In this document: positions 2,192-23,536 of the stretch, piece by piece | Layout: each line of letters starts with the position of its first letter | How positions within the stretch are numbered: position 1 is the first letter of the stretch | Virus record (IMG/VR): IMGVR_UViG_3300043420_000962 | Span: 1 to 24,684 of that record | Reading direction: 5' to 3' (one strand) | Length of the DNA: 24,684 nucleotides | DNA from: a virus | Made by a program: the position numbers and the translations under genes | The notes under the pieces: model-generated | What the model was told of the DNA's origin: nothing | The model's database searches: none | Seen by the model: only the letters and a program-made list of their open reading frames with translations

Positions 2192-2200
2192 TAGTATGCC
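2192..2200 (-). promoter_or_regulatory. GGCATACTA motif (putative -10-like promoter element)
   Basis: GGCATACTA on the minus strand, 31 bases before the 64-aa gene. It sits just past the terminator of the capsid gene, so it must start, not continue, a transcript if it is a promoter. It contains the -10-like hexamer CATACT; no convincing -35 element is visible. The same nonamer occurs upstream of the scaffold gene and of the 306-aa gene. Confidence 0.65.
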
Positions 2201-2203
2201 AAC

Positions 2204-2226
2204 AAAAAAAAGGCCCCGAAGGGCCT
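2204..2226 (-). terminator. Rho-independent terminator after the major capsid gene
   Basis: On the minus strand GGCCC-TTCG-GGGCC forms a GC stem with a stable tetraloop and is followed by an unbroken run of about nine T. It starts about 20 bases after the capsid protein stop and would end the capsid transcript before the next motif copy. Confidence 0.92.
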
Positions 2227-2247
2227 CAGGAGTCAGTGGTAGACTGA

Positions 2248-3138
2248 TTAGACGGCTGCGGTGGCGTCGATACCAGCCAGGCGAGCGGCAGCACGGCCAT
2301 TGATCAGCGCGAGCCCGCAATACCATTCGACGCGGGTGATCAGTTGGGGTTGAGCATGGCTCTCACCCAGTTCACGCACGTTCACGCCGCCGTTCTGGAT
2401 GCCAGTCAGCAGATCGTTGCCGAAGGCTACAACATACAGGTCCTGGGCAGAAGGGGTGCCGTCAAGGATAGCAACGTTCTTGTGGTCGCGATCCAGTTCG
2501 AGCACAGGGATGCCAGCGTAGGAGAGCTGTTGGTAGCCGAACTCGTTGCGGGTGATGTCGATCTGGCCGTTGGCACGAGCGTGCTTGCTCAGGTGACGAC
2601 GCAGGGACTTGGAGCACACAATGTACTTGCTGCCACCCTGGGCGTCCACGTTGTCAACTGCCTCGTCCAGCTTGCCCAGATCCAGAGCACCACCGCCGTT
2701 GGCGAAATACTGGCTGGAGCCGTTCTGGATACGAGCGGCCAGGCCGTCGAACTCAGAGGGGGACTGGTTGGAGTCGCCGTTGATGAACAGAGCTTCCCAA
2801 GCCATGCGCATTGCGCGGACACGGGACTGGATTTGATAAGCCTTGGCCTCAGCACCCTCGAGGTCGACGATAGCGCGATCGACCTTGATGTCGCCGCCGA
2901 AAAGTTTCAGGCTCTCGGACTGGGAGCTGACTTCAGCATAGCTCTCAGCCAGGGCGCCGTTGTAGTTTCTGAACCCGACATCGGGCAGAGCTTCCTCCCT
3001 CTTCCAAAATAATCCGTTGCCTTCAATGTTGCGGAAAGGGAGAGCAGACATGAGCTGGCCAGCAGCAAGCTCGGTCACCACCGCCAGTTCCTGGGGGGTG
3101 CGGGCGTGCTTCTGGGCCTGGAGTAGCGTCAGGGCCAT
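2248..3138 (-). CDS. Major capsid protein (HK97-like fold expected)
   Basis: 296 aa, no Cys clusters and no signal peptide. The N-terminal helix-rich stretch (MALTLLQAQKHARTPQELAV) and the central segment SYAEVSSQSESLKLFGGDIKVDRA resemble the E-loop and spine region of siphophage HK97-type capsid proteins. SEFDGLAARI and the LYVVAFGNDLLTGIQNGG region are also typical. The product would form the icosahedral shell on the scaffold encoded upstream. It has a good SD (AGGAG, nine bases before ATG), a long leader of about 127 bases from the motif at 3266-3274, and a strong terminator after the stop, all fitting high single-gene expression. An HNH gene separates it from the scaffold gene. It lies downstream of the tail module, an unusual position. 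Confidence 0.88.
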   Translation of the reverse strand: MALTLLQAQKHARTPQELAVVTELAAGQLMSALPFRNIEGNGLFWKREEALPDVGFRNYNGALAESYAEVSSQSESLKLFGGDIKVDRAIVDLEGAEAKAYQIQSRVRAMRMAWEALFINGDSNQSPSEFDGLAARIQNGSSQYFANGGGALDLGKLDEAVDNVDAQGGSKYIVCSKSLRRHLSKHARANGQIDITRNEFGYQQLSYAGIPVLELDRDHKNVAILDGTPSAQDLYVVAFGNDLLTGIQNGGVNVRELGESHAQPQLITRVEWYCGLALINGRAAARLAGIDATAAV

Positions 3139-3274
3139 GATTAAAATCTCCTAAGTGGATGAACAAAGATTTGGGTGAATTGCCTACGCAAGCATCGCGC
3201 AAGCGTCAGCATGACACCCTCCAGTCCACTCCATCTCGGAGAAGCCCTTCTGGGTGATCTATAGCTAGAATACC
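3139..3274 (-). promoter_or_regulatory. Capsid gene leader with GGTATTCTA motif and hairpin
   Basis: GGTATTCTA (3274-3266) starts just after the HNH gene stop and is followed by a 127-base leader, far longer than the usual 18-24 bases. The leader holds a CTCC-GAGAT-GGAG hairpin (3229-3241) and ends in AGGAG before the ATG. The bases just before the motif read TATAAATAGG, which resembles a T4-type late promoter, but this overlaps the end of the HNH gene and may be chance. Confidence 0.5.
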
Positions 3275-3277
3275 TAT

Positions 3278-3802
3278 TTATATTTTCGCGCCTTTGGACA
3301 GGTTTTCGTCTTTGGTAATAACCCGAAGATTCCACGGAAGGTGTGGCCCGCCCTTACTGAGAGGCCAGATGTGATCTACCTCGTGCTTGATTTCGGTTTC
3401 TTTTGTTAGTTGACGAGCATCCTCGTACCGATACTTGACCATGAGCTTTTCAATCTTAGAACAAGGCACCGGGGCGCCCCGCTCTAGGGCTCTTCTACGG
3501 GATCCTTTTAGCCTGTGCTTGACCGGGTTCTCCTTGGCCCAGTGAAGAGATCTTGACCTAGCCTTTCTCCTCTGCTCTTCGGCATTGGCTGCATAGTAAG
3601 CCCTTGAGACCGCGTTTCGAGCCTTTTTGTTGCGTGCATGGTCAGCGCTTTTCCATTCCTTGCGCTTCTCGGCGAATCCTGGCGAGTAACCAAGAACAAC
3701 CGTCCTGGATACGGAAAAGGCCCGAGCCACTTGTCGACCGCTTACCCCCATAGCGAGGGCAAGCTCGATCGACGTCTTGGTGGCTACGGGCAGTCGAGTC
3801 AT
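3278..3802 (-). CDS. HNH homing endonuclease between scaffold and capsid genes
   Basis: 174 aa. The C-terminal half holds an HNH core, HEVDHIWPLSKGG followed by WNLRVITKDENLSKGAK, the metal-binding beta-beta-alpha fold that nicks or cuts DNA. The N-terminal 40 residues (SIELALAMGVSGRQVARAFS) look like a helix-turn-helix that could guide site recognition. The middle is strongly basic. It starts ATG 12 bases after the scaffold stop and lacks the GGNANNCT(A/G) motif of its neighbours; a TATAAT-like sequence (GTATAATGAG) lies just before the start. Free-standing HNH genes of this kind are mobile and often sit beside conserved phage genes. No intron signature is evident. Confidence 0.88.
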   Translation of the reverse strand: MTRLPVATKTSIELALAMGVSGRQVARAFSVSRTVVLGYSPGFAEKRKEWKSADHARNKKARNAVSRAYYAANAEEQRRKARSRSLHWAKENPVKHRLKGSRRRALERGAPVPCSKIEKLMVKYRYEDARQLTKETEIKHEVDHIWPLSKGGPHLPWNLRVITKDENLSKGAKI

Positions 3803-3814
3803 AGACTCATTATA

Positions 3815-4555
3815 CTACTTAAACGCGACCTTAAACAGCTCGTCAGGCGACAGGCTCGAGAGATCCTGAACCGGCATGCCGTTAGTGTCAGTGCCACCGT
3901 AGCCGATACCAGCGCCAGCACCTTTAGCGCCCTTGAAGAAAGTACCGTATATGGGGTGCACTTTGTACGAAGAAACAAAGTCCTCGGGAGTAATGCGCTT
4001 GCCGGACTCCTTGTCAAGCAGCGGATCGCCTTGAGGGTCGACGACAGTCAGAGAGCCATCAGCTTCTTGGCGGAAGCGGGACTGCATCTGCTGAGCGAAC
4101 ATGTCATAGAACGACACGCCGTCTGCGGCATCGGAGCGGCCACCAGCAGCGAAGAAGACCTTCTCCATTGCAGTGCGCTTCTTGTACTCGGCCAATGCAG
4201 CCTTGGCGGCATCCGCCTCGCGCATGGCTTCTTGAGCCTGCTGAGAGTACTTGTTTTCGATGGCGTCACGAGCTTCGCCCCACTGAGCCTGCAGGCGGGC
4301 AGCCTCTGCGGCTTCCTGTTGCAGCTTATGATACTCGTCAGGGTTGATCTCGGCGAATTTCTCGAGATGAGTTTTGCTCTCCTTGAGTTCTCGCTCGTAC
4401 TGTTTACGAGCATCGCGTTCGGCTTTGAGAGCCTTGAGAAGGTTTTCAGCCTCGGAGCGGGGCATCATGTCGTCGCCACCAGTGGCAGCGGCTTCTTTAG
4501 CCTCGGGAGCAGAAACCTGGGCTTCCATCTCGGTAGCTTTGTTCTCTTCGGACAT
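3815..4555 (-). CDS. Capsid scaffolding protein
   Basis: 246 aa. Acidic N-terminus with MSEENKATEMEAQVS, then a long charged helical or coiled-coil region (about residues 35-135, rich in E, A, K and Q), then a less charged C-terminal part with SFYDMFAQQMQ and a Gly-rich linker before SLSPDELFKVAFK. This is the usual layout of siphophage scaffolds, where the helical core templates the shell and the C-terminus binds the capsid protein. It is directly upstream of the capsid gene apart from the inserted HNH gene. No protease motif is seen. No clear SD precedes the ATG; a hairpin at 4558-4580 lies there instead. Confidence 0.82.
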   Translation of the reverse strand: MSEENKATEMEAQVSAPEAKEAAATGGDDMMPRSEAENLLKALKAERDARKQYERELKESKTHLEKFAEINPDEYHKLQQEAAEAARLQAQWGEARDAIENKYSQQAQEAMREADAAKAALAEYKKRTAMEKVFFAAGGRSDAADGVSFYDMFAQQMQSRFRQEADGSLTVVDPQGDPLLDKESGKRITPEDFVSSYKVHPIYGTFFKGAKGAGAGIGYGGTDTNGMPVQDLSSLSPDELFKVAFK

Positions 4556-4591: not shown

Positions 4592-4600
4592 TAGTATGCC
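4592..4600 (-). promoter_or_regulatory. GGCATACTA motif upstream of the scaffold gene
   Basis: Exact GGCATACTA starting three bases after the TAA of the 223-aa gene and 36 bases before the scaffold ATG. The longer spacing is taken up by the leader hairpin. Confidence 0.65.
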
Positions 4601-5275: not shown

Positions 5276-5641
5276 TCAGCGACTCCACTTCTTCTGAGGG
5301 CAGAGAGAGTCGGGGTCGCCGCCGATCCAGGCCTTCGCCTCCATGAAACAACCGCACTCAGAGCAGCGCTTGCTGTCCTCGATAAAGAAAGGGCAGTTCT
5401 TGCAGGTCTCGTAGCGCTCGTTGTAGACCTCCTCTGTCACCCGTCCATTCCTGACGGCCTGGGCCGCATTCCTGACCAATCCTTTAGCCATCTTGCCGAT
5501 GCCGGCACTCACCTTGGTCGCATGCTTAGGCTGATTCTTGACAGACTCTTTTATTATGGCATTATGGCGCTCCTGCGGCCATGCCGAAACAGGACCAGTC
5601 GGAGGAACCCCATTGCAACTGAGCTCTGCTACGATGTCCAT
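5276..5641 (-). CDS. Zinc-ribbon-like protein, about 121 aa
   Basis: The C-terminal part carries CKNCPFF, then CSECGCFM, then LCPQKKW, a Cys-rich zinc-ribbon pattern seen in many small phage proteins of unknown role. The middle is basic and helical (KVSAGIGKMAKGLVRNAAQA). Two starts are possible: TTG at 5650, or ATG at 5641 that reads MDIVAELSCNG. The ATG is preferred because it stands 19 bases after the motif GGCATTCTA, the spacing seen at two neighbouring genes. It is coupled to the next gene by a stop and start one base apart. Nucleic-acid or protein binding is possible; no catalytic residues are recognised. Confidence 0.8.
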   Translation of the reverse strand: MDIVAELSCNGVPPTGPVSAWPQERHNAIIKESVKNQPKHATKVSAGIGKMAKGLVRNAAQAVRNGRVTEEVYNERYETCKNCPFFIEDSKRCSECGCFMEAKAWIGGDPDSLCPQKKWSR

Positions 5642-5660
5642 CTGAATCAAGCGACTGGGA

Positions 5661-5669
5661 TAGAATGCC
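5661..5669 (-). promoter_or_regulatory. GGCATTCTA motif upstream of the zinc-ribbon gene
   Basis: GGCATTCTA 19 bases before ATG 5641. About 30 bases further upstream, just after the 391-aa gene stop, a near-copy reads GAAACCCTAGTCCAGC, which matches the motif plus downstream bases at 8516-8524, suggesting a duplicated element. Confidence 0.6.
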
Positions 5670-5703: not shown

Positions 5704-6879
5704 CTAGGCTTCGGCTGGCACGACGGTCAGGCCAACCTGAACAGTGCTGGTAACTCCAGACTTGTTCACAACCTTGGCATACAGTTCAGAGGCCAAAACG
5801 GTCTCGTCATTGAAGTAGCCGACCACTGGCGTGAGCTTAATCGTTTCAGCGCCCGTTGTAAAGACCTCCGCAAGCACTCCAGACCCAGGAGAAGGATCAG
5901 TGCCTATGCCGCGCCCAGCATCGGCCGTACGGGCTGCCGTAGACGCATACAAAATGACCCATGCTGCTCTGTCGGTCTCGATTGCAATGAATCGCCCAGA
6001 CTTGCCAGTCCCTGTAAAAGTCAGGCTATCAGCTGCGTCGTTCGCCAGACTTGTGGTAGTAGCTGTCAGCGTGGTGCGATAGCCGATAACGCCGTCGGCG
6101 GCATAGCACTCGAGTGTGACTTCGGAGTTAACGCTGGTACCAGCCTGGTTCCTGACGGCCGCGTAGACTGCGTTAACTTTGGTGGCGTCGTTATTGAAGT
6201 ACACCGTACCAGGGGTGGCTAATACAGTGCCGCCAGCGGTGATATAGAACTCCGCCAAGACGCCAGATCCAGGAGAAGGATCAGTACCAAAGGCACGACC
6301 AGCATCGGCCGTGCGGGCAGCCGCAGTGGGATAGAGAACGATCCAGGCGTCCAGGCTTGAAGTAACCTGAACGAGCTGTCCAGACTTGCCAATGCCAACA
6401 AAAGTAGCAGCACCACCAGAGGCTGTCTGAGCCTCCGTGACGAAAGCGGTCTGTACGGCACCGCCACCGCCAGTCTGGTCTCCAGGTACCCAGTTGATGC
6501 CATCCCACTCGAGCACCTGGCCGTTAGTCGGTGCAACAGTGGAAGTGTCGACGTCAGTTAGACCGTCCAGAGAACCGACAGTGCTCGCCGTGCCAGGAAC
6601 CCATTCTGTGCCGTTATAGAGAAGTACGTTACCGTTAACTGGCGGAGTGGTGGAGAGGTCGACATCTGTTAGACCGTCAAGCGCTGCGGCTTCGCCGCCA
6701 ATAACGACGACAGCGCCAGTTGAGTCAAGAGTGTAAAGTTTTACTCCTCCAGACTCCCTGCCAATAACGATCTCGCCATATACAATAGCATCTGTGCCAC
6801 CGCTACCAATAGCCGACTCAATAGCTGCCTGAGCGTCCGTGGAGTTCTTGAGGATGACTCTGTCGGGATAAACCGCCAC
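5704..6879 (-). CDS. Repeat-containing tail fibre/virion protein, 391 aa
   Basis: Two internal duplications are visible. LDGLTDVD...VL.W/YNG..WVPG occurs at about residues 67-96 and 104-133; this repeat is common in phage fibre proteins. A larger unit holding AAARTADAGR and GTDPSPGSGVLAE occurs at about 175-225 and again at about 305-355. The composition is Gly/Ala/Thr/Val rich and beta-like, without Cys clusters or a signal peptide. The start is GTG (reading MAVYPDRVIL), 19 bases after the motif; no clear SD is present. It lies directly after the Cys-rich gene, whose stop overlaps the motif. A fibre or baseplate-spike role is inferred. Confidence 0.82.
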   Translation of the reverse strand: MAVYPDRVILKNSTDAQAAIESAIGSGGTDAIVYGEIVIGRESGGVKLYTLDSTGAVVVIGGEAAALDGLTDVDLSTTPPVNGNVLLYNGTEWVPGTASTVGSLDGLTDVDTSTVAPTNGQVLEWDGINWVPGDQTGGGGAVQTAFVTEAQTASGGAATFVGIGKSGQLVQVTSSLDAWIVLYPTAAARTADAGRAFGTDPSPGSGVLAEFYITAGGTVLATPGTVYFNNDATKVNAVYAAVRNQAGTSVNSEVTLECYAADGVIGYRTTLTATTTSLANDAADSLTFTGTGKSGRFIAIETDRAAWVILYASTAARTADAGRGIGTDPSPGSGVLAEVFTTGAETIKLTPVVGYFNDETVLASELYAKVVNKSGVTSTVQVGLTVVPAEA

Positions 6880-6898: not shown

Positions 6899-6907
6899 TA
6901 GGATGCC
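6899..6907 (-). promoter_or_regulatory. GGCATCCTA motif upstream of the 391-aa gene
   Basis: The motif overlaps the last base of the TAG stop of the Cys-rich gene and lies 19 bases before the GTG. The following bases (GTCTAGTTGATTTGC) are nearly the same as those after the copy at 8516-8524. Confidence 0.65.
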
Positions 6908-8496
6908 TAGCACTTAATAGTCTCAATGAGCGACGGCTCCCTTCCTGGGTCTGGCCCACCGCACCACGTACCACTCACACCGCCACTCAGGAATTCACCC
7001 GAAATCCAGTTGCCATTGCCATCCTTGATGCGCCAACCTCGTCTACTGCTACCGGTCACGCACGGACCGTATGGATTCAGGACGGCCTCGGTCGTGAGAA
7101 CAAGCGAGTGCGGTAGTGGGCCGCAGTCCGACGTTACGTTAACGGTACCTGTAGCTCCAGTACTCGGGTAGACACAGCCGCCGCCATAGTCAGGGGAATA
7201 GGCGCATCCATAGTAGGTAAAAGGTGCACCAGCCAGATACCACCGACTCTTGAAATTTCCACTGCAATTCGGATCCGGGTAACAGGTTCCATCAGCGCCG
7301 CACAACTGGCAGCTGGGGCAATCGTTGTGGCAGTTGCAGTCGCATTCCTTGCAGCTTTCTGGCACGTTGGTCATATCGCAACGCTTGAAAAGTATGCTGG
7401 CCTGATCACCAACCTTGATCCAGCCCGTGACAACATTTTTGTAACCGTCTGGCGCGTTAGGGTGATCAGGTAGCGGGTTTCCAGGGGTTGGGGTAAAAGT
7501 GCCGCAGTCTGGCGTTGGATTGCCATAGCTGTCCGTGCCGCCACAGGGGGCCGTAATATCTTCGCAGTCCCCCTGGCACGGATCCAGCCTTGGTTTCGAG
7601 CCTGGTTTGTCGCAAATCTCATCGCACCTATTGGCGATTTCGGCCTGACAACGGTTAACTGGACTCGGTCCACTCTCCCATTGATCAAGCGTGTAGCAGC
7701 ATGTCTGGTTGACTACGGTGGCGTCGCAGCCAGGACACTCTGTATTGGTAATCGTAACGCACCTCTGGCACGACGTCGGGTCGAAAGACCTTGTTCCGTT
7801 TTCGTTGCACCTCGTGCACTCCGGTCCACCAAATAAGTCGCAGTGACACGGAGCAGAGCCATTTGTTAGTGGCCTGCAGTTGCCACTTACGGAGACAAAG
7901 ATCTCTTCACAGAACGAGCACTCGTCACATGCCAGTCCACTGCAGCCAGCCGCCTCGCCGCCGAACGACTGAGAATATGACGTGCAGAAGGAGCTACAGC
8001 CCTGTTGCTGAGGCTCGCCGCAGAAGCAGTTGATCGTACCATACGCATCGTATCGGCAGGAGCGTGTACCAGGGCAATCCACGGCTCCCTCGCTGCCGCA
8101 CTTCTCCAGCGAGCATCCAGCGATCGTGCAGCCGTCCGCCGCGTATACTGGCACCCACTGATAGCTTGACATGCTGCCATCGCTGTGGTAGCGAATGACG
8201 TCGCCATACGCAGTCTCGCCAGTGGTGCGATTGGTGGCCGAATGGTTAGTGGTCGTCAGCGAGTTACAGGGGCCGCCACCACTGCCTTCACCGCATCCAC
8301 TGGTAGAGCCGTCACTGGACTGCTGGCTCACCTTCGGGACACAACGTCCACCGGCACAGGTATAACCAGATCCGCAGTCCCCACTACTGAAGCACTGTGA
8401 TCCACCGAAAATGGTATTTATATTGCCAGTTCTAAGAAACAGGTCAGCGGCTTGCTGGCGCTGGCCACTTCCAAATGTCCAGTTACCCCAGCTCAC
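6907..8496 (-). CDS. Extremely cysteine-rich putative virion protein, 529 aa
   Basis: About 53 Cys in 529 residues (10%), spread over most of the chain. Early residues carry CFSSGDCGSGYTCAGGRC (about 35-52), a spacing like small disulfide modules in secreted eukaryotic proteins. Later clusters include CDECSFC, CSSFC, CPGC, CDEICDKPG and a dense CKECDCNCHNDCPSCQLC run near residues 395-415. The C-terminal 100 residues are less Cys-rich and beta-like. There is no signal peptide or membrane helix. The start is GTG (reading MSWGNWTFGSG) 19 bases after the motif. It sits in the distal tail module between a small virion protein and a repeat fibre. It may be a disulfide-stabilised tail spike or adhesin; zinc binding by some clusters is the alternative. 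Function not recognised. Confidence 0.85.
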   Translation of the reverse strand: MSWGNWTFGSGQRQQAADLFLRTGNINTIFGGSQCFSSGDCGSGYTCAGGRCVPKVSQQSSDGSTSGCGEGSGGGPCNSLTTTNHSATNRTTGETAYGDVIRYHSDGSMSSYQWVPVYAADGCTIAGCSLEKCGSEGAVDCPGTRSCRYDAYGTINCFCGEPQQQGCSSFCTSYSQSFGGEAAGCSGLACDECSFCEEIFVSVSGNCRPLTNGSAPCHCDLFGGPECTRCNENGTRSFDPTSCQRCVTITNTECPGCDATVVNQTCCYTLDQWESGPSPVNRCQAEIANRCDEICDKPGSKPRLDPCQGDCEDITAPCGGTDSYGNPTPDCGTFTPTPGNPLPDHPNAPDGYKNVVTGWIKVGDQASILFKRCDMTNVPESCKECDCNCHNDCPSCQLCGADGTCYPDPNCSGNFKSRWYLAGAPFTYYGCAYSPDYGGGCVYPSTGATGTVNVTSDCGPLPHSLVLTTEAVLNPYGPCVTGSSRRGWRIKDGNGNWISGEFLSGGVSGTWCGGPDPGREPSLIETIKC

Positions 8497-8514: not shown

Positions 8515-8898
8515 CTAGGTTGCCAAGGGGTTATAGAATCCGGCGTTAGCGTCGTAGGCTTTGCCGGTTTGCGAATCTGTGGCGCCGGAGGACGGCTTAA
8601 TAGGGACATACTCGTAATAGAAGAGCGGGACCCCGGTTCCAGGAACCTGACCAGTCGGCAGCCAGACCCCGAGGGTGGCAATCGAGCCATCCGTGCTGGA
8701 GGTGGCTCCGGCTAACTGTGGCACGTTACCTGGGTTTGCCGGAGGATTGAAGTAGGTAACAGTTGTCCCGCTGGAAAAGTCAGGCACGCTGGCCCCAATC
8801 GTGTCCGTACTAAGGAACACGCAACGAGGCGGAGCGTCGCCATGTAATCCCTCTGCAGAGACGGAGCGACTGGCTATAATGTTTGGTTCAATGGCCAT
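8515..8898 (-). CDS. Small putative virion protein, 127 aa
   Basis: Begins MAIEPNIIASRSVSAEG, closely similar to the N-terminus of the gene just upstream (MAINPSAIASRTIADP). The rest is Pro/Gly/Ser/Thr rich and likely beta-structured, with GVWLPTGQVPGTGVPLFYYE in the second half. Its ATG overlaps the TGA of the preceding gene, so it is translationally coupled as the last of a four-gene string. Its stop codon lies inside the motif that precedes the Cys-rich gene. A tail-tip or fibre-adaptor role is inferred from context. Confidence 0.8.
   Translation of the reverse strand: MAIEPNIIASRSVSAEGLHGDAPPRCVFLSTDTIGASVPDFSSGTTVTYFNPPANPGNVPQLAGATSSTDGSIATLGVWLPTGQVPGTGVPLFYYEYVPIKPSSGATDSQTGKAYDANAGFYNPLAT
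8516..8524 (-). promoter_or_regulatory. GGCAACCTA motif upstream of the Cys-rich gene
   Basis: Codes for the last residues of the 127-aa protein and includes part of its TAG stop; 19 bases before the GTG at 8496. The downstream bases (GTCCAGCTGATTTGC) repeat those after the copy at 6899-6907. Confidence 0.65.
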
Positions 8899-9114: not shown

Positions 9115-9378
9115 TTACCACTTGCTATAATAGATGCCGTTGGCAAATGTCATCTCGACGGCCGTACCAGCTGGCACAGACGTAAACCCGATCGGCTTTG
9201 TATGATACTGCTTGGAGTTGTACTCCACAATACCACCACCAGTCTCGTCGAGCTTGACCCATCTGCCAGTAACACTGCCCTCAAAGTCCCCAGTAACGGT
9301 CTGGTCCGTTGTAAGGCGCTCCAGGTCTGCGAGGCGCTCTGCCTGACTGATCTGAAGTAGGTCGTTAAGGAGTGCCAT
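9115..9378 (-). CDS. Small protein with N-terminal helix, 87 aa
   Basis: Begins MALLNDLLQISQAERLADLERL, a Leu-rich amphipathic helix that may form a coiled coil, followed by a beta-rich half ending in ANGIYYSKW. The ATG at 9378 overlaps the TGA of the 242-aa gene, which favours it over the upstream in-frame ATG at 9414. It is the second gene of a coupled four-gene string. A short helix plus a small beta domain would fit a tail-tip or fibre-connecting subunit; this is inference. Confidence 0.78.
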   Translation of the reverse strand: MALLNDLLQISQAERLADLERLTTDQTVTGDFEGSVTGRWVKLDETGGGIVEYNSKQYHTKPIGFTSVPAGTAVEMTFANGIYYSKW

Positions 9379-10128: not shown

Positions 10129-10137
10129 TAGTCTTCC
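10129..10137 (-). promoter_or_regulatory. GGAAGACTA motif upstream of the 242-aa gene
   Basis: Three bases after the stop of the 739-aa gene and 22 bases before the ATG at 10106. No good SD is seen between motif and start. Confidence 0.6.
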
Positions 10138-12785: not shown

Positions 12786-13142
12786 TTAGTTTGCCGATGC
12801 CAGGTTTTGATATTTGGCAATGTTGTTCGGATCATATCCGCCGAGCCACGCGGGTTGCCTACCGCGCTTGGTCCCTAGTACCCGCCCTTTGAAGTCGTCG
12901 TCAATGCTCGCCAGATACGCGAATACGGCGTCGTGACGCTCGAGAAGTACGTCCAGGGTATCAGAGGGCGCCCCATCTTCTCTGGCGGCCTCGTAAGCCA
13001 TCCTAGCGTAAGCTAGTGCATGCCGGACGTCCTGAAGATCCATCTCGTCCAGGTGCACGGATGGCATCTGAGGGCCCAGTTTGTCCAGGGCCCCGCGCCA
13101 GTACATTGTCGCTTGGTCGTCAGGGGATCCGAAGTGGAACAT
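12786..13142 (-). CDS. Hypothetical tail-module protein, 118 aa
   Basis: Begins MFHFGSPDDQATMYWRGALD; mostly alpha-helical with HLDEMDLQDVRHALAYARMA and a second helix ending in a basic loop (GTKRGRQPAWLGGYD). Its ATG overlaps the TGA of the tape measure gene, so translation is coupled to it. No Cys, signal or membrane segment. In siphophages the gene right after the tape measure is usually a tail-tip component, but this helical protein is not one I recognise. Confidence 0.78.
   Translation of the reverse strand: MFHFGSPDDQATMYWRGALDKLGPQMPSVHLDEMDLQDVRHALAYARMAYEAAREDGAPSDTLDVLLERHDAVFAYLASIDDDFKGRVLGTKRGRQPAWLGGYDPNNIAKYQNLASAN
12787..12795 (-). promoter_or_regulatory. GGCAAACTA motif upstream of the 133-aa gene
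   Basis: Codes for the last residues of the 118-aa protein and includes part of its TAA stop; 22 bases before ATG 12764. Confidence 0.6.
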
Positions 13143-16053: not shown

Positions 16054-16062
16054 TAGGTTTCC
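16054..16062 (-). promoter_or_regulatory. GGAAACCTA motif upstream of the tape measure gene
   Basis: Directly after the terminator of the major tail gene (four bases from its T-run) and 20 bases before ATG 16033. This is the second place where a strong terminator is followed at once by the motif. Confidence 0.68.
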
Positions 16063-16104: not shown

Positions 16105-16719
16105 TCAGTTGCCAGCGTTCTCGTCCAGCTCGATCACATAGGGACCGTAGCCAGTCAGGGAGCACTCCCAGGACACAATCGAGCCAGCCTCGATGGACTC
16201 GGTGTAGCCAGTCAGGGTGCCGTAGCCGTAGACGGTCTCAACAGTGCCTGTAGGACCCACGCGGGCGAACTTCACACGCAGGCTGTCAGCCACGGTGTTT
16301 TGCTCGGTGATACGAAGGATCTGATAGGCAGCATCCTTGAAGTCAGCCACGCCAGCCAGGCTCACGCTCCAGGACTTAGAGGTAGCGATGGAGGTGTTGA
16401 AACCCTTGGTCGTGTCATCATAGGTGATTACGTCCTCAGAGTTGGTGTCGGTTTCCAGGGAAGCGTTGGTCAGGCCAAGTAGCTTAGCGGGATCCATGGT
16501 GCCGTCGGTCGGCTGAGCCACGGGAGTGGCGCCCAGGGAAAACACACCAGCAGCATAAGTGACCTTTTCGTTGGCGGCGACGATGGTCGTGGTATCAATG
16601 AAGTTACCCGCACCGGCACCCACACCACCAGTCACACCAGCAAAGGTGGTGTCAACGGAAGCGGAAGCCAGCGGGACGATGTAGCAATTATACCCGAAGG
16701 CAGCAGAATAATTTGCCAT
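16105..16719 (-). CDS. Major tail (tube) protein
   Basis: 204 aa, beta-rich, beginning MANYSAAFGYNCYIVPLASA. The C-terminal half has ITEQNTVADSLRVKF, VYGYGTLTGYTESIEAGSIVSWECSLTGYG, the typical hairpin-rich end of siphophage tube subunits. Hexameric rings of this protein would stack on the tape measure. Position is classical: after the tail-completion protein and before the tape measure. It has its own motif, a leader hairpin and a strong terminator, the same single-gene arrangement as the capsid gene and consistent with high copy number. No clear SD precedes the ATG. No sheath gene is seen, supporting a non-contractile tail. Confidence 0.88.
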   Translation of the reverse strand: MANYSAAFGYNCYIVPLASASVDTTFAGVTGGVGAGAGNFIDTTTIVAANEKVTYAAGVFSLGATPVAQPTDGTMDPAKLLGLTNASLETDTNSEDVITYDDTTKGFNTSIATSKSWSVSLAGVADFKDAAYQILRITEQNTVADSLRVKFARVGPTGTVETVYGYGTLTGYTESIEAGSIVSWECSLTGYGPYVIELDENAGN

Positions 16720-16771: not shown

Positions 16772-16780
16772 CAGGATACC
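16772..16780 (-). promoter_or_regulatory. GGTATCCTG motif upstream of the major tail gene
   Basis: Just after the stop of the tail-completion gene and 52 bases before the ATG; the long spacing holds the leader hairpin. The last base is G instead of A. Confidence 0.6.
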
Positions 16781-16782
16781 GA

Positions 16783-17220
16783 TTAGTTTAAAATCGGCCT
16801 GTCGGAAGGGATCAGAACTCTCGTTTGAACCAATGCTCCTAACCCATCCGAAACGGCCACCGTCTCGGTTGAGGTGGCACCAGAAAACCTTTGAACAATC
16901 TTCGTAGAGGCAGCCGTCATGTCATTGCCGTTCGAGCCATCCCAACAGATCAGGAAAAGCTGCCAAACGTAAACTGGAGTCGAATATCCAGTTATGTAGT
17001 CTTTCCTGGTAACGTTGGCAGCATCGTGTATCACGCACTCTAGACCAGTTACGCCACGAAGATTTGGCAGACTTTCCCCAGGCGATACGATCGATATGGC
17101 TGGACTCGTTGCGCCGCCGTTGCCCTCGAACTTGTAAGTACCGAGCAGGGCCACGAATGCGGCATCACCGACCAGGGCGTCGTATATCACAGTAGAAGAG
17201 GTCGGAAAAACTTGTGACAT
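16783..17220 (-). CDS. Tail completion/terminator-like protein, 145 aa
   Basis: Begins MSQVFPTSSTVIYDALVGDAAFVALLG, the small helix-first layout of siphophage tail terminator proteins (VIYDALVGDAA then GVTGLECVIHDA). The middle has YSTPVYVWQLFLICWDGSNG and the end an alternating beta pattern. Such proteins cap the tail tube and join it to the head. Directly upstream of the major tail gene, the usual place. ATG 17220 is 19 bases after the motif. No competing function is suggested by motifs. Confidence 0.8.
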   Translation of the reverse strand: MSQVFPTSSTVIYDALVGDAAFVALLGTYKFEGNGGATSPAISIVSPGESLPNLRGVTGLECVIHDAANVTRKDYITGYSTPVYVWQLFLICWDGSNGNDMTAASTKIVQRFSGATSTETVAVSDGLGALVQTRVLIPSDRPILN

Positions 17221-17239: not shown

Positions 17240-17248
17240 TAGTGTTCC
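17240..17248 (-). promoter_or_regulatory. GGAACACTA motif upstream of the tail-completion gene
   Basis: 19 bases before ATG 17220. It sits in the intergenic stretch between this gene and the plus-strand HNH gene. Confidence 0.6.
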
Positions 17249-17806: not shown

Positions 17807-18955
17807 CGTTGTCCTGAGCAACAAACTTAGTTGGGACCTCGGGGACATATAGCTCCCTGGTGGTCCCATCTGGAGTGTCAAACACGATCCATTGGTCGCT
17901 GGCCTTCTCAGTAGCGATAAGCATGCCACTATAGCCGCCAGTAGTCTTACTTGGTGCCAGAAGAATGGCATTGTCGCTAGTAAAGGCCAAAAGAGCGGGC
18001 GGCTCTCGGTCTGATGCCGACAAGGCCAGTTCTTTGTAGCAGAACAAGGCCCACGAGGGAAACTGTTTCAGCCTGATAAGCTCCATTGCCGCAGCTGCAG
18101 CACGACCTGCTGGCAGTGATTGCTCGTCCTTTGGCTGATACAGGTAATAATCCTCTGGGGTGTACGGCTTCTTGCGCTTCTTGGCGTCTCTGTTCAAATT
18201 GGCGTGTAAAGCCGTCTGAACTGCTATTGGTCGTTCATGGGCGAACAGCTCGTACTGGTACATCTTGACGCACCGCCGATAGGCTTCGATGACATACTCA
18301 TAAGGCAACTCGCTAAAGTTGCTATACGAGAATTCTGCATCCCCTGGAAAGAAGCGTTTCAGTTGCCAGTAGTACGTTTCAAAATCGTAAACAGATTCGC
18401 CCGATCCTACTTTTTTGCAACGTCCTCCACTAGATCGCTTTTTTCGTCTTTTACCGACTCCAGCAAGCGCTCAGTGCTGCGTGCTTCCTCTTCGTCATAA
18501 AGCTCTGCAAGCCCCTCCAGGAGGTCTGGATGCAGTTGCATGACATCTTCTGCCGTACAGGTCGCATCAACGCGATACAAGACCATGCAGAAGGCTTTGG
18601 TGAACTTCATGCGCTCGAGCGACGTGCTTGCTGACATCGCAATTTCTCCGAGCTCGCTGGTGAAATCCTTCTGAATCTTCTCGACCAAGCTTCCACTTTC
18701 AGAGCCAGTAATGGTTCCGGTCACAAGCTGGTAAGCCTCTTGGGCATCGATCTTGTATTTAGAAGCAACCTTCCTGACAGTTGACAAGATCAATTCAGAC
18801 GTCTTGTCCGAACTGTTTGCATTTGAAATGAAGGCTTTCTCGCCAGTGGTCAAATACCCACGGCGCTCGATGTCGACCTGACCAGACTCCTCGCTGCCAA
18901 TCCTCTCGGTGATAGGCTTTAAGCGAGGCTCTACGACAAAGGGAAGTTTGGACAT
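17787..18955 (-). CDS. Tail assembly chaperone G-T fusion made by -1 frameshift
   Basis: After the slip the -1 frame reads GTA GGA TCG from 18410 and stays open to TAG at 17787-17789, adding 207 residues to the 182 of the short form (389 aa in all). The T part opens VGSGESVYDFETYYWQLKRF and continues LPYEYVIEAYRRCVKMYQYE. The T part has no ATG near its beginning; the only nearby start, TTG 18308, leaves 33 open codons unused. This argues for frameshift expression over a separate gene. The last 20 bases overlap the convergent HNH gene. The T half normally recruits tube subunits to the tape measure complex. Confidence 0.75.
18407..18955 (-). CDS. Tail assembly chaperone, short (G-type) product
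   Basis: 182 aa, beginning MSKLPFVVEPRLKPITERIG, mostly helical and acidic toward the end (DLVEDVAKK then TAG). The last three sense codons read GCA AAA AAG, containing the slippery heptamer A AAA AAG in frame. Lambda-like siphophages make a short G protein and a rare G-T fusion by -1 frameshifting; both coat the tape measure before tube polymerisation. Size, acidic helical composition and slip site all fit. ATG 18955 is 20 bases after the motif. Its position upstream of the tail-completion and major tail genes, instead of between tube and tape measure, is unusual. Confidence 0.78.
   Translation of the reverse strand: MSKLPFVVEPRLKPITERIGSEESGQVDIERRGYLTTGEKAFISNANSSDKTSELILSTVRKVASKYKIDAQEAYQLVTGTITGSESGSLVEKIQKDFTSELGEIAMSASTSLERMKFTKAFCMVLYRVDATCTAEDVMQLHPDLLEGLAELYDEEEARSTERLLESVKDEKSDLVEDVAKK
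18410..18428 (-). other. Programmed -1 ribosomal frameshift site (A AAA AAG)
   Basis: The heptamer A AAA AAG (18416-18410) is in the 0 frame directly before TAG. It is the same slippery sequence used in Escherichia coli dnaX. A Shine-Dalgarno-like GGAGG (18428-18424) lies seven bases upstream; an upstream SD-like element also stimulates dnaX frameshifting. No strong downstream hairpin was found by eye. Confidence 0.78.
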
Positions 18956-18975: not shown

Positions 18976-18984
18976 TAGTCTACC
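18976..18984 (-). promoter_or_regulatory. GGTAGACTA motif upstream of the chaperone gene
   Basis: Overlaps the stop codon of the gp10-like gene and lies 20 bases before ATG 18955. Confidence 0.6.
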
Positions 18985-19528
18985 TAAGCCTTGAATCGAT
19001 AGCGCCACCGATGATTTCGTCCAAGTTAACCGAAGGAACAGGGCCATTGCCATATAGTGTGGCGTCGATCCAGGGTCTCCCTGGTAGGTATACAGCATCT
19101 ATTCTCTGGTTGCCGTATGGCTGGATGTAGCCACCATTATGGACGAAGGAAGCATACGGAGTATTGTACGAAATGTCAACAGTATCGCCGTTGATGGCCA
19201 CCGACAGGCTAGCCTTTAGCTCGCCAGTGTCTACGATGTCCCTGGCCCCACCCGTGTTCCATGCCCACACACTAGAGCTAACAGCTGTGTCTAGGGCTTC
19301 TCTGATGGCCTGAGAAACGACTTGAACTGCGTATGATGTTGCCTCATCGAATATCTCTGCGGCAGCCGCTACGTCGCTCTTGGAGGGGCCTTTGATGTCA
19401 ATCTTTCCAAAAGGTAGGCTCTTGGCGGTCCATGTTTTTTTGATACCCTCAACCTCTTTAACTGCTTGATCTAGCCTTTTGTACAACTCTTGAATTGGGT
19501 CGTTGCTAACCCTAACACCTCGAGCCAT
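18980..19528 (-). CDS. Head-tail connector, HK97 gp10-like, 182 aa
   Basis: Begins MARGVRVSNDPIQELYKRLDQ. The first half is helical (AAEIFDEATSYAVQVVSQAI). The second half has GELKASLSV, ISYNTPYASFVHNGGYIQPYG and YLPGRPWIDATL, matching the pattern of HK97 gp10-type neck proteins (a Y-x-PYA-x-x-VHNGG turn followed by a PGRPW segment). These proteins join the completed head to the tail. Its ATG overlaps the TAA of the previous gene (TAATG), so the two are coupled. The stop lies inside the chaperone gene's motif. Confidence 0.8.
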   Translation of the reverse strand: MARGVRVSNDPIQELYKRLDQAVKEVEGIKKTWTAKSLPFGKIDIKGPSKSDVAAAAEIFDEATSYAVQVVSQAIREALDTAVSSSVWAWNTGGARDIVDTGELKASLSVAINGDTVDISYNTPYASFVHNGGYIQPYGNQRIDAVYLPGRPWIDATLYGNGPVPSVNLDEIIGGAIDSRLR

Positions 19529-20031
19529 TAGAACTGCAGCTCCCCACCCGTAATTTGCAGCTGCACACCGCCCATTTCCCTGTAGATAATCTCGTCAATA
19601 CCTTGGCCGCCAAAGATGCCACTAGAGCGCTCGACACGGCCAATGAGAGGCTTGTCGTCTCCGAACACAAACTGAACCTGCTTTCCTGGAGCTAGAAACA
19701 ACGGTTGGCTTGTAATTTGCGTCCAGACCAGCAGGTTTTCGGAATCCCCGATCTTGAAGTCACTGGCAACTGCGGCCTGCTCGAGGGCATATCCACGATA
19801 GTAGAACGAATCACCAGATGCGCCTGGCATCATCGCCCCATCCAGTTGGCTCTCGAGAGGAATTTTCTTTGATCCAGAGGAAACACCAGTGTACTGGGCC
19901 CTTTTCATGAAGCACTTGACTAGATAGTTTTGGCCATTGGCCGCAACGTATCGTCCATTAACATTGGTCACAGCTCCCTCTACGGCAGCCATTACCCGTG
20001 CGTTGTTATACGGAAGCAGGGGACTTGCCAT
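19528..20031 (-). CDS. Head-tail connector/head closure-like protein, 167 aa
   Basis: Begins MASPLLPYNNARVMAAVEGA from ATG 20031; GTG 20037 is possible but would stand only 12 bases from the motif. The body is beta-rich (NYLVKCFMKRAQY, LLVWTQITSQPLFLAPGKQVQFVFG, IIYREMGGVQLQI), as expected for a small head-closure ring protein. It is coupled to the gp10-like gene. Identification rests on size, context and beta pattern; no diagnostic motif is present. Confidence 0.75.
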   Translation of the reverse strand: MASPLLPYNNARVMAAVEGAVTNVNGRYVAANGQNYLVKCFMKRAQYTGVSSGSKKIPLESQLDGAMMPGASGDSFYYRGYALEQAAVASDFKIGDSENLLVWTQITSQPLFLAPGKQVQFVFGDDKPLIGRVERSSGIFGGQGIDEIIYREMGGVQLQITGGELQF

Positions 20032-20049: not shown

Positions 20050-20058
20050 TAGGATTCC
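20050..20058 (-). promoter_or_regulatory. GGAATCCTA motif upstream of the head-closure candidate
   Basis: 18 bases before ATG 20031 and just after the terminator at 20064-20084. Confidence 0.62.
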
Positions 20059-20119: not shown

Positions 20120-20707
20120 TCACTCCTTAAGCTTCAAACCGCGACACTTGGCGCAGGAGCACAGAAAAGGCGTCCAGTCTCGCGTTTCAATGAATTGCTT
20201 TTGATACCTTAGCGCCTGTTCTATGTCTTTCCAGCTGCCATGATACTCTCCATTCATGCGGAAAGTCCAGCTTCCTCTGTCAAATCCCACGCAACCCCTG
20301 TAGTGAGTAGTTGTGCCGTTAGCCAAAAGTTGCTGCTTGCCGTCAATAGCTTCCTTCTCCGTCTCGAATACCTGGACTAACCTGTCCTTGATCCGAAGTT
20401 CCCACCGTCCCCTAAGGTTGTAGATGCGTGGCTCGAAGTGTCGCAGTCGAGTGTTGTTACGCTGTTCCAAGCGCGATGCCCATTTACAGTTCCACGGAGC
20501 GTAGGGGCCATCGTTGTCAATCCTTTCTATTGAAAAGCCTTCTGGGCGCTCGCCCATGTCGGCAACGAACGTCCAGAAATCATTCCAGGCAGGGTCAAGG
20601 TAGATCCCCCTGCCGCCGTAATTCTTAAACGCTTTGCAGCTTGGATTGCAACAACGCTGTCGAATCGCTTTCCATGTATCGTAGAGGTAGTGATCTGTCC
20701 TCTTCAT
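20120..20707 (-). CDS. HNH endonuclease with AP2-like C-terminal region, 195 aa
   Basis: The N-terminal half follows the pattern of a well-known mobile phage nuclease family: [16 protein letters not shown], then [24 protein letters not shown], then [20 protein letters not shown] and EQRNN. The second half has [22 protein letters not shown], an AP2-type DNA-binding region expected to bind the target. Basic residues are spread throughout. It lies between a zinc-finger-like gene and the head-closure candidate, with a terminator after it. The upstream element is a degenerate GGTAGAATA 21 bases before ATG. Probably a free-standing homing endonuclease. Confidence 0.85.
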
Positions 20708-20728: not shown

Positions 20729-20737
20729 TATTCTACC
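20729..20737 (-). promoter_or_regulatory. Degenerate GGTAGAATA element upstream of the HNH/AP2-like gene
   Basis: Keeps GG and A at position 4 but has AT in place of CT; 21 bases before ATG 20707. TAGAAT is itself a plausible -10 hexamer. Confidence 0.4.
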
Positions 20738-20739: not shown

Positions 20740-20943
20740 CTACCGAAGCCTGTCTTCACGGAAACGCTTCAGTTTGTCAGAACAGCGGCTGCAGCTAGCT
20801 ATTTCGCCATTCAGGTGCTTAGCGAAGACGGCATTCATCTTACGGAAGGCGCCACAGCCGTTGCACCAGACGTCTACAAGTTCTTGATTACTGAATTCGG
20901 CTAGCGCTTCGCCCAGTGGGCCATTAACTTCAGGGTGTTGCAC
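20740..20943 (-). CDS. Small zinc-finger-like protein, 67 aa
   Basis: Begins at GTG (reading MQHPEVNGPLGEALAEFSNQ). WCNGCGAFRKMNAVF and CSRCSDKLKRFREDR supply two CxxC pairs about 22 residues apart, a single zinc-finger layout, with a basic C-terminus suited to nucleic-acid binding. The motif GGTAGACTG stands 23 bases before the GTG. No clear SD. Role unknown. Confidence 0.72.
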   Translation of the reverse strand: MQHPEVNGPLGEALAEFSNQELVDVWCNGCGAFRKMNAVFAKHLNGEIASCSRCSDKLKRFREDRLR

Positions 20944-20966: not shown

Positions 20967-20975
20967 CAGTCTACC
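20967..20975 (-). promoter_or_regulatory. GGTAGACTG motif upstream of the zinc-finger-like gene
   Basis: Last base G instead of A; 23 bases before the GTG at 20943. It begins three bases after the stop of the 135-aa gene. Confidence 0.55.
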
Positions 20976-20977: not shown

Positions 20978-21385
20978 TCAAGACCGAATCAGGGGCGTTG
21001 TATAGGTGTCGTTGCCGACAAAACCACCCAAACAACTACAGAAGGCGAAGATTGACTGCAGGTGCATTCTGTCGCTCATCATTTGCTTCTGGGGGCCACT
21101 GGGCTTGTCGGCTCCATCGGGAGACCAAGCAAGCACATCTGCTTTTATCAGCGTTTTGCCCTCAGTATCGGCCAAATTTGCGGCTTCCTGTGCCGTTTCG
21201 GCGGTTTCGTAGCTCGTCAGCAGGTTCAGGACATCCTGTTGAGCGACTGTCGACATCACTTGGAGGTCGTTCATACACCCCGCAACGCAGGAAAGTGCAT
21301 ACGATCCAAATGGGACCTGTAGCGCCTTGATCAGGCGGTAGTCATCGCCAGTAGACCAAAGGCCAGAGGTATCGAGAACTGCCAT
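20978..21385 (-). CDS. Hypothetical virion-module protein, 135 aa
   Basis: ATG 21385 (reading MAVLDTSGLWSTGDDYRLIK) is preferred over GTG 21394 because its distance to the motif (24 bases) is closer to the norm. The middle is helical (MSTVAQQDVLNLLTSYETAETAQEA); four Cys are scattered (SCVAGC, FCSC). It lies between the 306-aa protein and the connector genes, so a portal-proximal or connector role is possible. No family recognised. Confidence 0.7.
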   Translation of the reverse strand: MAVLDTSGLWSTGDDYRLIKALQVPFGSYALSCVAGCMNDLQVMSTVAQQDVLNLLTSYETAETAQEAANLADTEGKTLIKADVLAWSPDGADKPSGPQKQMMSDRMHLQSIFAFCSCLGGFVGNDTYTTPLIRS

Positions 21386-21409: not shown

Positions 21410-21418
21410 TAGGGTTCC
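21410..21418 (-). promoter_or_regulatory. GGAACCCTA motif upstream of the 135-aa gene
   Basis: 24 bases before ATG 21385. It lies nearly back to back with the plus-strand motif at 21424-21432, forming a compact divergent promoter region. Confidence 0.6.
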
Positions 21419-21423
21419 AGGCT

Positions 21424-21443
21424 GGTATACTGTGTGCTATAAT
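21424..21443 (+). promoter_or_regulatory. Plus-strand promoter: GGTATACTG motif and extended -10 TATAAT
   Basis: GGTATACTG (21424-21432) stands 23 bases before the ATG at 21456. Seven bases further on, TGCTATAAT (21435-21443) is a textbook extended -10 element. This is the only plus-strand copy assigned to a gene, and its spacing equals that of the minus-strand copies. Confidence 0.65.
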
Positions 21444-21455
21444 GAGTCCAGAACC

Positions 21456-21635: not shown

Positions 21636-21814
21636 CCCAGCCCTCGAGGATAAAGGAATCCACTTGTTGGGCGAGTTGAACCACCTCCGCCACCTCCTGT
21701 CCCAAACCCGACATCGATTTTGGTAGCAACCATTTTAACGATGGGTACGCTCGTAACAGTAGTAAGGGGAGCGCTGACGTCAATAATTCCGCTAACGGTA
21801 ACTGGAGTAGCCAT
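21632..21814 (-). CDS. Small putative virion protein, 60 aa
   Basis: Begins MATPVTVSGIIDVSAPLTTV: alternating beta-strand residues, then a Gly run (GTGGGGGGST) and the tail PTSGFLYPRGLG. ATG 21814 overlaps the TGA of the 306-aa gene, so it is coupled to it; no motif precedes it, as expected. Probably a small accessory of the upstream structural protein. Confidence 0.72.
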   Translation of the reverse strand: MATPVTVSGIIDVSAPLTTVTSVPIVKMVATKIDVGFGTGGGGGGSTRPTSGFLYPRGLG

Positions 21815-22734
21815 CACGCAATACCGGGGTCATTGGTTCCAAAGTCAAAAAGTATTGCCTGCCGGCCGAGATCGGTACCGGCGTACCACCAATAATTCGA
21901 TCCGATCAACAGTGTTGTTCCATCGCCCTGCGGGAATGGCCGACGTGCATCAGCACTAGCAAAGAAACCAGATCCAGGTACCCAGATACCCGTATCCGTG
22001 TGGCCGCCATTTGTGAACGCTACCTGCGAAGCACTGTCCAGCGACATCGTCGTCGTAGACTGGGAATACAACCAGTTGAAATTAGTGCCAATCCAGTTTC
22101 CGGTGTTACTTGGGATTACATTGGTAGTGCTGTTATATGTGTAACCTACACTTGGCATCATGAATTGCTCTGTAGAACTAGTGCCGGTATTGATAGGAGC
22201 GTTTAAGTTAGCCAACGATCCATAAGTAAAGCCGACATGAGGTATAATACAGGTCCTCAACGAGTCTACGGTTCCATCCCATGAGGTATCCTCAAAAAAC
22301 AACCCCTCAGTAATACCAGGCCAGTAGAAGTAGGGCCTGTTTCCTTGAAGCACCAGCATGCTCTGGTCGTTTTCAGAACTCTGGCAGAAGTACCACGTAG
22401 TAGAGGCCGTGGCAAACGCTGTAGAGTTGCCAACGCTGTTAGTAGTATCGTTACAGAGATCCCCAGGTACCGTTGTATAAGTAGCATCCTCGTACCAGCT
22501 CCAAAGGGTAGGGGTCGTGTTGCTCCAGCTAACCCAGTAGTACATAGTATAGGTACCACCAAACTTATTGTTTAGTGTACACTTGGCCTTACGCTGATAA
22601 GCCAGAGCACTCGGGTGAGCCTCAACGGTCCATGCCGTCTTACCATTCAGGTAGGTATCCATCAGGTACGTTAAGGCAGTATGATTATCCGCCGACGATG
22701 TCACGGGTATCGAATGGACAATCGACCAGGTCAT
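21814..22734 (-). CDS. Aromatic-rich putative virion protein, 306 aa
   Basis: Begins MTWSIVHSIPVTSSADNHTA. Very rich in Trp, Tyr, Thr, Asn and Ser, with repeated aromatic turns (TMYYWVSWSNTTPTLWSWYE, NRPYFYWPG, GNWIGTNFNWLYSQS, IGSNYWWYAGTDLGRQ). This beta-like composition suits an exposed fibre, spike or carbohydrate-binding head protein. No catalytic motif, signal peptide or coiled coil. ATG 22734 is 21 bases after GGCATACTA. It lies upstream of the connector genes, away from the fibre genes, so a head-associated fibre is possible. Confidence 0.8.
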   Translation of the reverse strand: MTWSIVHSIPVTSSADNHTALTYLMDTYLNGKTAWTVEAHPSALAYQRKAKCTLNNKFGGTYTMYYWVSWSNTTPTLWSWYEDATYTTVPGDLCNDTTNSVGNSTAFATASTTWYFCQSSENDQSMLVLQGNRPYFYWPGITEGLFFEDTSWDGTVDSLRTCIIPHVGFTYGSLANLNAPINTGTSSTEQFMMPSVGYTYNSTTNVIPSNTGNWIGTNFNWLYSQSTTTMSLDSASQVAFTNGGHTDTGIWVPGSGFFASADARRPFPQGDGTTLLIGSNYWWYAGTDLGRQAILFDFGTNDPGIA

Positions 22735-22749
22735 GGCATACCGCTCAAA

Positions 22750-22836
22750 TCATTGTAGTATGCCGAGGGACCCAAACCCGGTTTCGATTTTTTTTTCAGA
22801 TTTTTTAAGGGCCCCTCTCGTTGGCGCCTTTTTCAT
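22750..22836 (-). CDS. Possible small basic peptide, 28 aa
   Basis: An open frame begins at ATG 22836 (MKKAPTRGALKKSEKKIE) and ends at TGA overlapping the motif region before the 306-aa gene. It is Lys-rich and fills most of the gap after the endonuclease. Only a weak GGTGG lies near the start. It may be chance. Confidence 0.28.
   Translation of the reverse strand: MKKAPTRGALKKSEKKIETGFGSLGILQ
22756..22764 (-). promoter_or_regulatory. GGCATACTA motif upstream of the 306-aa gene
   Basis: Exact GGCATACTA, 21 bases before ATG 22734. Confidence 0.65.
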
Positions 22837-22852
22837 ATGCCACCGTTTTCTG

Positions 22853-23505
22853 TCAAGGCTGATGCTTCCTCAGGTATTCAACGGCCGCCATCAAACAAGA
22901 TTGGTCGTTCTTGAAATTACCAAGGCCATGATTACAATTCGAGCACAGAAGCCCTCTTACGGCCCCACTGCCATGGTCGTGGTCAATATGAAGCCTCTCC
23001 CCGCTACCGCAGATCTTACAACGGTTCCCTGACCTTAGAACCATCTCAGAAAAGCCCTCTTCAGATAGATTGTACGTCTGTAGTCTCGCTCTGTGCGCAA
23101 GCCTTTCTCTGCGGGCATTTGTCACTACACAGTTTTTGAGGACCCAATAGGCTTGAACTCCTGGCCACAATGCACACAGTTCCTCCTTTTCGCCTCCTGT
23201 CGCTCCTGGTAACGCTTCTTGGCATTCTCTCGACCTCGCGCCTTAGTCTCCTCATAGCCAATAGCCCTGCACTCCTGGGAACAGTAACAGCTGTTGTTGT
23301 TGATTCGCTCAAATACAGTACTACAAATCTTGCACCGAGACTCCCCAGGCATTAACCCCGTCTCCGTAAGGCGTTTCTCTCGGACCGCATGAAGCTTCTT
23401 GCGCTTCCAACGCCTCTTCTCAGTCCTCTTGCGACACTCCTCACTACAAAACCTCTTAACGCGAAGCGTTGTCTCGAAAACCTTGCCGCAATCCTCGCAC
23501 TGCAT
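22853..23505 (-). pseudogene. Zinc-finger/endonuclease VII-like nuclease gene broken by two +1 frameshifts
   Basis: The first segment starts at ATG 23505 (MQCEDCGKVFETTLRVKRF) and holds two zinc fingers (CEDC...FCSEEC and CKIC...YCSQEC) plus the first half of a third (CVHCGQEF). It then stops at TAG. Removing one A from the A5 run (23133-23137) and one C from the CCC run (23113-23115) restores the third finger (KLCSDKC) and joins RRERLAHRARL to an endonuclease VII domain: NRCKICGSGE, then LHIDHDHGSGAVRGLLCSNCNHGLGN. Both errors are in homopolymers, so decay, sequencing error or recoding are all possible. The 23505 start lies 22 bases after the motif; an alternative ATG at 23772 would add 89 low-complexity residues. 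Endonuclease VII-type genes in phages are often mobile. Confidence 0.8.
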
Positions 23506-23527
23506 CCCGGAAAGACTATTCTTTTTC

Positions 23528-23536
23528 CAGTATACC
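23528..23536 (-). promoter_or_regulatory. GGTATACTG motif upstream of the endonuclease VII-like gene
   Basis: 22 bases before ATG 23505, which supports that start. Identical to the plus-strand copy at 21424-21432. Confidence 0.6.

Follow-up and report, generated by a model that had tools for sequence, protein, structure and literature searches.

The J-box of SigJ promoters in Nostoc punctiforme has the sequence GGGaAtacT and is accompanied by a weak -35 region (PMC6495340), and SigF promoters of Synechocystis carry GGTAA at -12, with SigF itself being autoregulated (PMC2758279). In T4, the late sigma factor gp55 joins a sigma-2 domain through a variable linker to a clamp-binding motif at its C-terminus (PMC2988020, PMC7892883). 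A group 3 sigma factor (ORF003) was noted in 2009 in the Prochlorococcus siphovirus P-SS2, for which only sigma-70 promoters were predicted and no target motif was named (PMC2784084). Here, a repeated motif, GGNANNCT(A/G) or GGNANNCTR, was analyzed in a complete IMG/VR record of 24,684 bases (IMGVR_UViG_3300043420_000962, in the following the window), which is a fragment of a cyanosiphovirus genome. Very probably, the motif serves this virus of marine cyanobacteria as the promoter of its late genes, which build the particle. Judging from sequence comparison, it would represent a -10 element without a -35 element, and a SigF-type sigma factor encoded by the phage probably reads it; this explanation as a whole is considered highly likely.

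Head and tail genes occupy the minus strand of the window, among which PHROG matches identify capsid, scaffold, tape measure and major tail, and the relatives of the phage are the Synechococcus phages S-CRES3, S-CBS2 and S-CRES1. The 18 minus-strand copies reported in an earlier sequence-only reading are all present, 17 of them as exact GGNANNCTR and one as GGTAGAATA at 20737-20729. The raw count alone is weak evidence: 35 copies occur on both strands (27 minus, 8 plus) compared with 24.9 expected from shuffles, and 3 of 100 shuffles reach 35. The same reading had put the chance expectation at about six copies per strand, but shuffles give about 12. Position was therefore used as the test instead, with a slot defined as 15-26 nucleotides (nt) upstream of gene starts and the density inside genes as background. 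In the window, GGNANNCT(A/G) has 11 matches in 336 nt of slot, which corresponds to 32.7 per kilobase (kb) compared with 0.41 per kb inside genes (80-fold, p = 6e-18) and bears out the claim that its placement before starts is not due to chance. Each of 59 letter-permuted patterns, in which the same five letters were exchanged among the same positions, was found at a maximum of two genes compared with 11 for the real motif. The other ten minus-strand matches fall inside genes, about as many as chance predicts. A reverse-complement control for motif discovery was dropped, as it merely mirrors the same motif; in-gene stretches and permuted patterns were used instead.

Several gene starts in the window were picked by eye. 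The independent test was thus performed in annotated isolates with deposited gene starts, namely S-CRES3, S-CBS2, S-CRES1 and P-SS2. The scan of relatives that had been proposed revealed enrichment upstream of starts in all four, with slot and in-gene densities of 15.7 and 0.61 per kb in S-CRES3, 17.2 and 0.49 in S-CBS2, 15.8 and 0.36 in S-CRES1, and 13.3 and 0.19 in P-SS2. De novo searches by a home-written expectation-maximisation covered the 60 nt upstream of every gene. Without the window, the best motif of S-CRES3, S-CBS2 and S-CRES1 was aTH-GG-H-A-t-(A/C)-C-T-A, and a separate search of P-SS2 returned GG-A-A-n-n-C-T-R with the same spacing.

A metagenomic sample of 121 relative loci with 1,900 open reading frames was used to resolve the anatomy of the box. 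Its density peaks 18-24 nt before starts, with 14.6 per kb in the slot compared with 0.98 inside genes. With positions counted from T-7, four bases are invariant, namely G-14, G-13, A-11 and T-7. In the metagenomic sites T is favoured at -16 and G is avoided at -15, -12 and -9; only 4% have G at -15, so that the third G of the J-box (GGG) is missing here. Position -8 shows a strong preference for C (14.6 per kb) and tolerance of A (2.5), but no enrichment of G or T. No position from -64 to -28 rises above 0.06 bit, which indicates that there is no -35 element. The predicted +1, located 7 nt after T-7, is a purine in 81% of the sites. A GG directly upstream of a -10 box with near-invariant A-11 and T-7, which characterizes SigJ/SigF-type promoters, is thus present in the phage sites.

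S-CRES3, S-CBS2 and S-CRES1 harbor two sigma genes each, one of the SigF type and one RpoD-like. All 32 aligned SigF-type homologues match the cyanobacterial SigF model PRK07408 best, over regions 2-3 only and below its curated cut-off, and a sigma-2 domain is recognized in the predicted structure, with a best Z of 12.5 over 77 residues at 1.8 Å. No Sigma70_r4 domain was detected by sequence anywhere in the three phage genomes; control genomes do match. For the C-terminal part no solved fold was matched, as all Foldseek candidates stayed below a Z of 2, a result that does not rule out a relationship. A region 4 match is likewise absent from the second, RpoD-like phage sigma (L001:5004-5801, L004:11804-12589). 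The P-SS2 sigma (ORF003) belongs to the same PHROG family, phrog_36098, and a scan of genome contigs for the sigma found one contig. The motif occurs in phages with the SigF-type sigma. S-CBS4, S-CBS3 and S-CBWM1, which lack a close one, show no comparable enrichment, with zero slot sites in S-CBS4 and S-CBWM1. The sigma gene itself is preceded at 21-22 nt by TGGTAGACTG in S-CRES3 and S-CBS2, and by TGGTAGACTG or TGGTAGAATG-like forms in many relatives. In the S-CBS2 record this gene (gp77, L004:20832-21452) is frameshifted, and the rest can be read in a different frame up to the same C-terminus.

The reading preferred from the sequence alone, a -10-like box lacking a -35 and recognized through a phage-encoded specificity, is consistent with every test. 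It is based on the register of the cyanobacterial SigJ/SigF -10 region, the co-occurrence with the SigF-type sigma, the missing -35 information and the purine at +1. Each copy is predicted to be the -10 element of a late promoter of the form T-16 n G-14 G-13 H-12 A-11 t-10 (a/c)-9 C-8 T-7 A-6, from which transcription would start at the purine 7 nt after T-7, giving leaders of about 14-17 nt for most genes. The boxes would be read by the host RNA polymerase together with the phage-encoded SigF-type (group 3) sigma, which comprises regions 2 and 3 only. Region 2 would take A-11 and T-7, and regions 2.4-3.0 the GG. The promoter string of the sigma gene, TGGTAGACT, fits an extended -10 (TGnTAnnnT) as well as the late box (GGnAnnCT) and thus appears to be composite. 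Such a promoter could let a host-type polymerase switch the sigma on, which would then amplify itself, in a logic resembling the autoregulation of SigF.

Several observations weigh against this explanation. The window, as a 24.7-kb fragment, does not contain the sigma gene, so that the link between motif and sigma rests on the relatives. Just 17 of 35 metagenomic copies of the sigma gene are preceded by an exact box, and some first genes outside the late module also carry the motif. S-CBS3, which has no SigF-type sigma, shows two slot sites (p = 0.019), far below the motif-bearing phages. Furthermore, the negative-control phages (S-CBS4, S-CBS3 and S-CBWM1) are few in number.

Alternatively, the boxes might be read by an RpoD-kind sigma, either host SigA or the second phage sigma, with the GG representing an unusual extended -10. 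A-11 and T-7 are universal -10 bases, capsid promoters often contain an A at -8 (GGTATAAT-like), and an RpoD-like sigma is present in the same phages. However, just 2 of 46 genes have the motif in S-CBS3, which possesses an RpoD4-type sigma but none of the SigF type, the GG register belongs to SigJ/SigF promoters, and genes outside the late module show TGnTAtacT-like boxes instead, which makes recognition by an RpoD-kind sigma improbable. The TGnTAtacT-like boxes may themselves be targets of the RpoD-like phage sigma or of the host. No strong second motif was found among genes without the late box at widths 6-10, and only a TGnTATAcT-like motif at width 29; TATAAT before non-late genes is near chance (27/70 compared with 22.7). 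The fit to the cyanobacterial J-box register would also be expected if the host's own SigF or SigJ, rather than a phage sigma, read the boxes. This is judged very unlikely, as the Synechococcus siphophage S-CBS4, which does not have the sigma, shows no slot sites, the P-SS2 authors describe group 3 sigmas as rare in Prochlorococcus (PMC2784084), and G-15, which is fixed in the J-box, is depleted here.

The assignment of the boxes to promoters of the SigF-type phage sigma agrees with their distribution among genes. It had been observed that genes without the motif abut the previous stop, and indeed abutting late genes carry a box in only 0/16, 0/11 and 1/12 cases; late genes after a gap of at least 18 nt carry it in 23/30, 28/33 and 23/31 cases (74-85%). 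Terminator-like hairpins occur just upstream of 47 of the 266 metagenomic sites, compared with 0 after shuffling, and the distance from the terminator T-run to the GG is most often 6-8 nt. The sites predicted in the window are as follows.

2192..2200, minus strand: predicted late promoter GGCATACTA of gene 1966-2160; predicted +1 at 2186; directly after the terminator 2227-2210
3266..3274, minus strand: predicted late promoter GGTATTCTA for the major capsid gene 2248-3138, with the +1 predicted at 3260; conserved at 62/62 orthologous positions
4592..4600, minus strand: predicted late promoter GGCATACTA of the scaffold gene 3815-4555, whose start lies 36 nt downstream; hairpin CGGGTGAGATACCCG in the leader
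5661..5669, minus strand: predicted late promoter GGCATTCTA of gene 5276-5650
6899..6907, minus strand: predicted late promoter GGCATCCTA of gene 5704-6879
8516..8524, minus strand: predicted late promoter GGCAACCTA of gene 6907-8496
10129..10137, minus strand: predicted late promoter GGAAGACTA of gene 9378-10106; identical sequence and spacing in S-CRES3
12787..12795, minus strand: predicted late promoter GGCAAACTA of gene 12363-12764; identical sequence and spacing in S-CRES3
16054..16062, minus strand: predicted late promoter GGAAACCTA of the tape measure gene; immediately preceded by a terminator-like hairpin
16772..16780, minus strand: predicted late promoter GGTATCCTG of the major tail gene 16105-16719, whose start lies 52 nt downstream; the leader is structured
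17240..17248, minus strand: predicted late promoter GGAACACTA of gene 16783-17220
18976..18984, minus strand: predicted late promoter GGTAGACTA of gene 18407-18955
20050..20058, minus strand: predicted late promoter GGAATCCTA of gene 19528-20031
20729..20737, minus strand: variant GGTAGAATA with A at -8, 21 nt before the HNH gene 20120-20707; the variant itself is enriched in the slot
20967..20975, minus strand: predicted late promoter GGTAGACTG of gene 20740-20943
21410..21418, minus strand: predicted late promoter GGAACCCTA of gene 20978-21385
22756..22764, minus strand: predicted late promoter GGCATACTA of gene 21814-22734
23528..23536, minus strand: predicted promoter GGTATACTG of the HNH-type gene that ends at 23125, with an in-frame ATG of this gene 22 nt downstream at 23505

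The gene 6907-8496 in the tail region has a GTG start and encodes a very cysteine-rich product of 529 residues without a PHROG match. HNH / endonuclease VII-like genes (3278-3802, 20120-20707 and 23125-23505) sit among the head and tail genes, and at least two of them have their own predicted late promoter box.

The capsid gene shows the strictest conservation of its upstream region, with the box kept and the invariant positions intact in all 62 distinct sequences. At the fixed spacing of 7 nt after T-7, T-1 and A+1 are each found in 59/62 and G+2 in 61/62, and a T-run lies within 35 nt upstream in 43/62. The promoter is followed by a further feature.

3139..3260, minus strand: structured capsid mRNA leader RNA, 122 nt, with two GNGAY-loop hairpins; no match to any Rfam family

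This leader, about 125 nt long in relatives, is conserved and contains three covarying helices. Its covariation score is 0.614, compared with 0.282 (standard deviation 0.018) for shuffled alignments and at most 0.170 with the pairing slid. In each related phage, a covariance model of the leader has matches upstream of the capsid gene and nowhere else, with a weak match in P-SS2 (E 0.035). The hairpins that had been noticed in three long leaders are real: that of the capsid gene is strongly covarying, and the scaffold and major tail leaders fold better than most shuffles. The scaffold hairpin, CGGGT-GAGAT-ACCCG at 4579-4565 (minus strand), is located just before the scaffold start, and a GNGAY-loop hairpin is found at the same place in S-CRES3, S-CBS2 and S-CRES1. 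The presence of the same GNGAY loop in scaffold and capsid leaders suggests one RNA-binding partner for both. Feedback control of head proteins by the capsid leader would be a guess. A role of the motif at the RNA level, in processing or in ribosome loading 20 nt upstream of starts (the alternative named in the sequence-only reading), would fit the fixed spacing to start codons and the few Shine-Dalgarno-like words in these genes (14/75 compared with 90/211), but is the least plausible explanation of all, as the conserved capsid leader RNA starts only at the predicted +1 and not at the motif, conserved leaders of 36-130 nt break the spacing while the motif is still kept, the motif is unable to pair with the anti-Shine-Dalgarno, and a minority of sites follow intrinsic terminators by 6-8 nt, so that many upstream transcripts would end before the motif.

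In addition to its proposed role in reading the late promoters, the SigF-type phage sigma may contact the replication machinery. QxxLF forms its C-terminal end in 31 of 34 distinct homologues (L010:8542-9273 and 30 others), after a variable stretch, and in S-CRES3 and S-CRES1 the sigma is the sole protein with this ending. The bacterial beta-clamp-binding pentapeptide is QL(S/D)LF and is often C-terminal (PMC9690074). The beta-clamp domain DNA_pol3_beta_2, the one clamp family searched (gp45 was not), has no match in the three phages, so that the tail would have to bind the clamp of the host. This suggests T4-like, replication-coupled late transcription, in which the tail would tether the holoenzyme to the host beta clamp. 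The tail is absent from P-SS2 and from the metagenomic homologues L043 and L045, and the S-CBS2 record is frameshifted at the tail. Thus clamp coupling is put forward as a hypothesis for one clade, outside the main claim. One phage protein might then combine SigF-type regions 2-3, by which GGnAnnCT promoters without a -35 are read, and a C-terminal tag that binds the host beta clamp, and might couple late transcription to replication without a phage clamp or a gp33-like coactivator. Such a system, convergent with T4 and built from a cyanobacterial sigma, is a tentative proposal, regarded as possible rather than probable.

Compared with known promoters, the phage boxes share G-14, G-13, A-11, C-8 and T-7 in the same register with the SigJ J-box and SigF promoters, which likewise belong to group 3 sigma factors, and the -35 that is weak or absent there is absent here. 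They differ in that they avoid G-15, prefer T-16, lack the -32 TAGGC element and serve phage late genes. Short promoters of this kind, free of a -35, would be useful orthogonal parts in cyanobacteria. The T4 late system (gp55, gp33, gp45) resembles the present one in its -10-only late promoters and in a sigma that has region 2 homology and, after a variable linker, a C-terminal tail of the clamp-binding type. However, the box here is GGnAnnCT, the sigma is SigF-type with region 3 and no gp55 homology (best matches SigF), and the tail is a bacterial-type QxxLF; no phage clamp gene was found, no gp33 equivalent was identified, and P-SS2 lacks the tail. If the clamp tail works, replication-coupled late transcription would have arisen a second time, outside the T4 group. 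The middle and late sigma factors of the Bacillus phage SPO1 (gp28 and gp33/34) and the sporulation-like phage sigmas also redirect the host polymerase to phage genes (PMC9429907), but they involve another sigma subfamily and promoter, and the sporulation-like ones are non-essential for infection under the test conditions. Finally, ORF003 of P-SS2 shares its PHROG family with the sigma described here, and the same motif was found in the P-SS2 genome in the present analysis. For this group 3 sigma, for which no target was named in the literature searched, a candidate target sequence, regulon and predicted start point can now be proposed. As the assignment spans P-SS2 and the abundant S-CBS2-like cyanophages, late operons should become callable from sequence in both.

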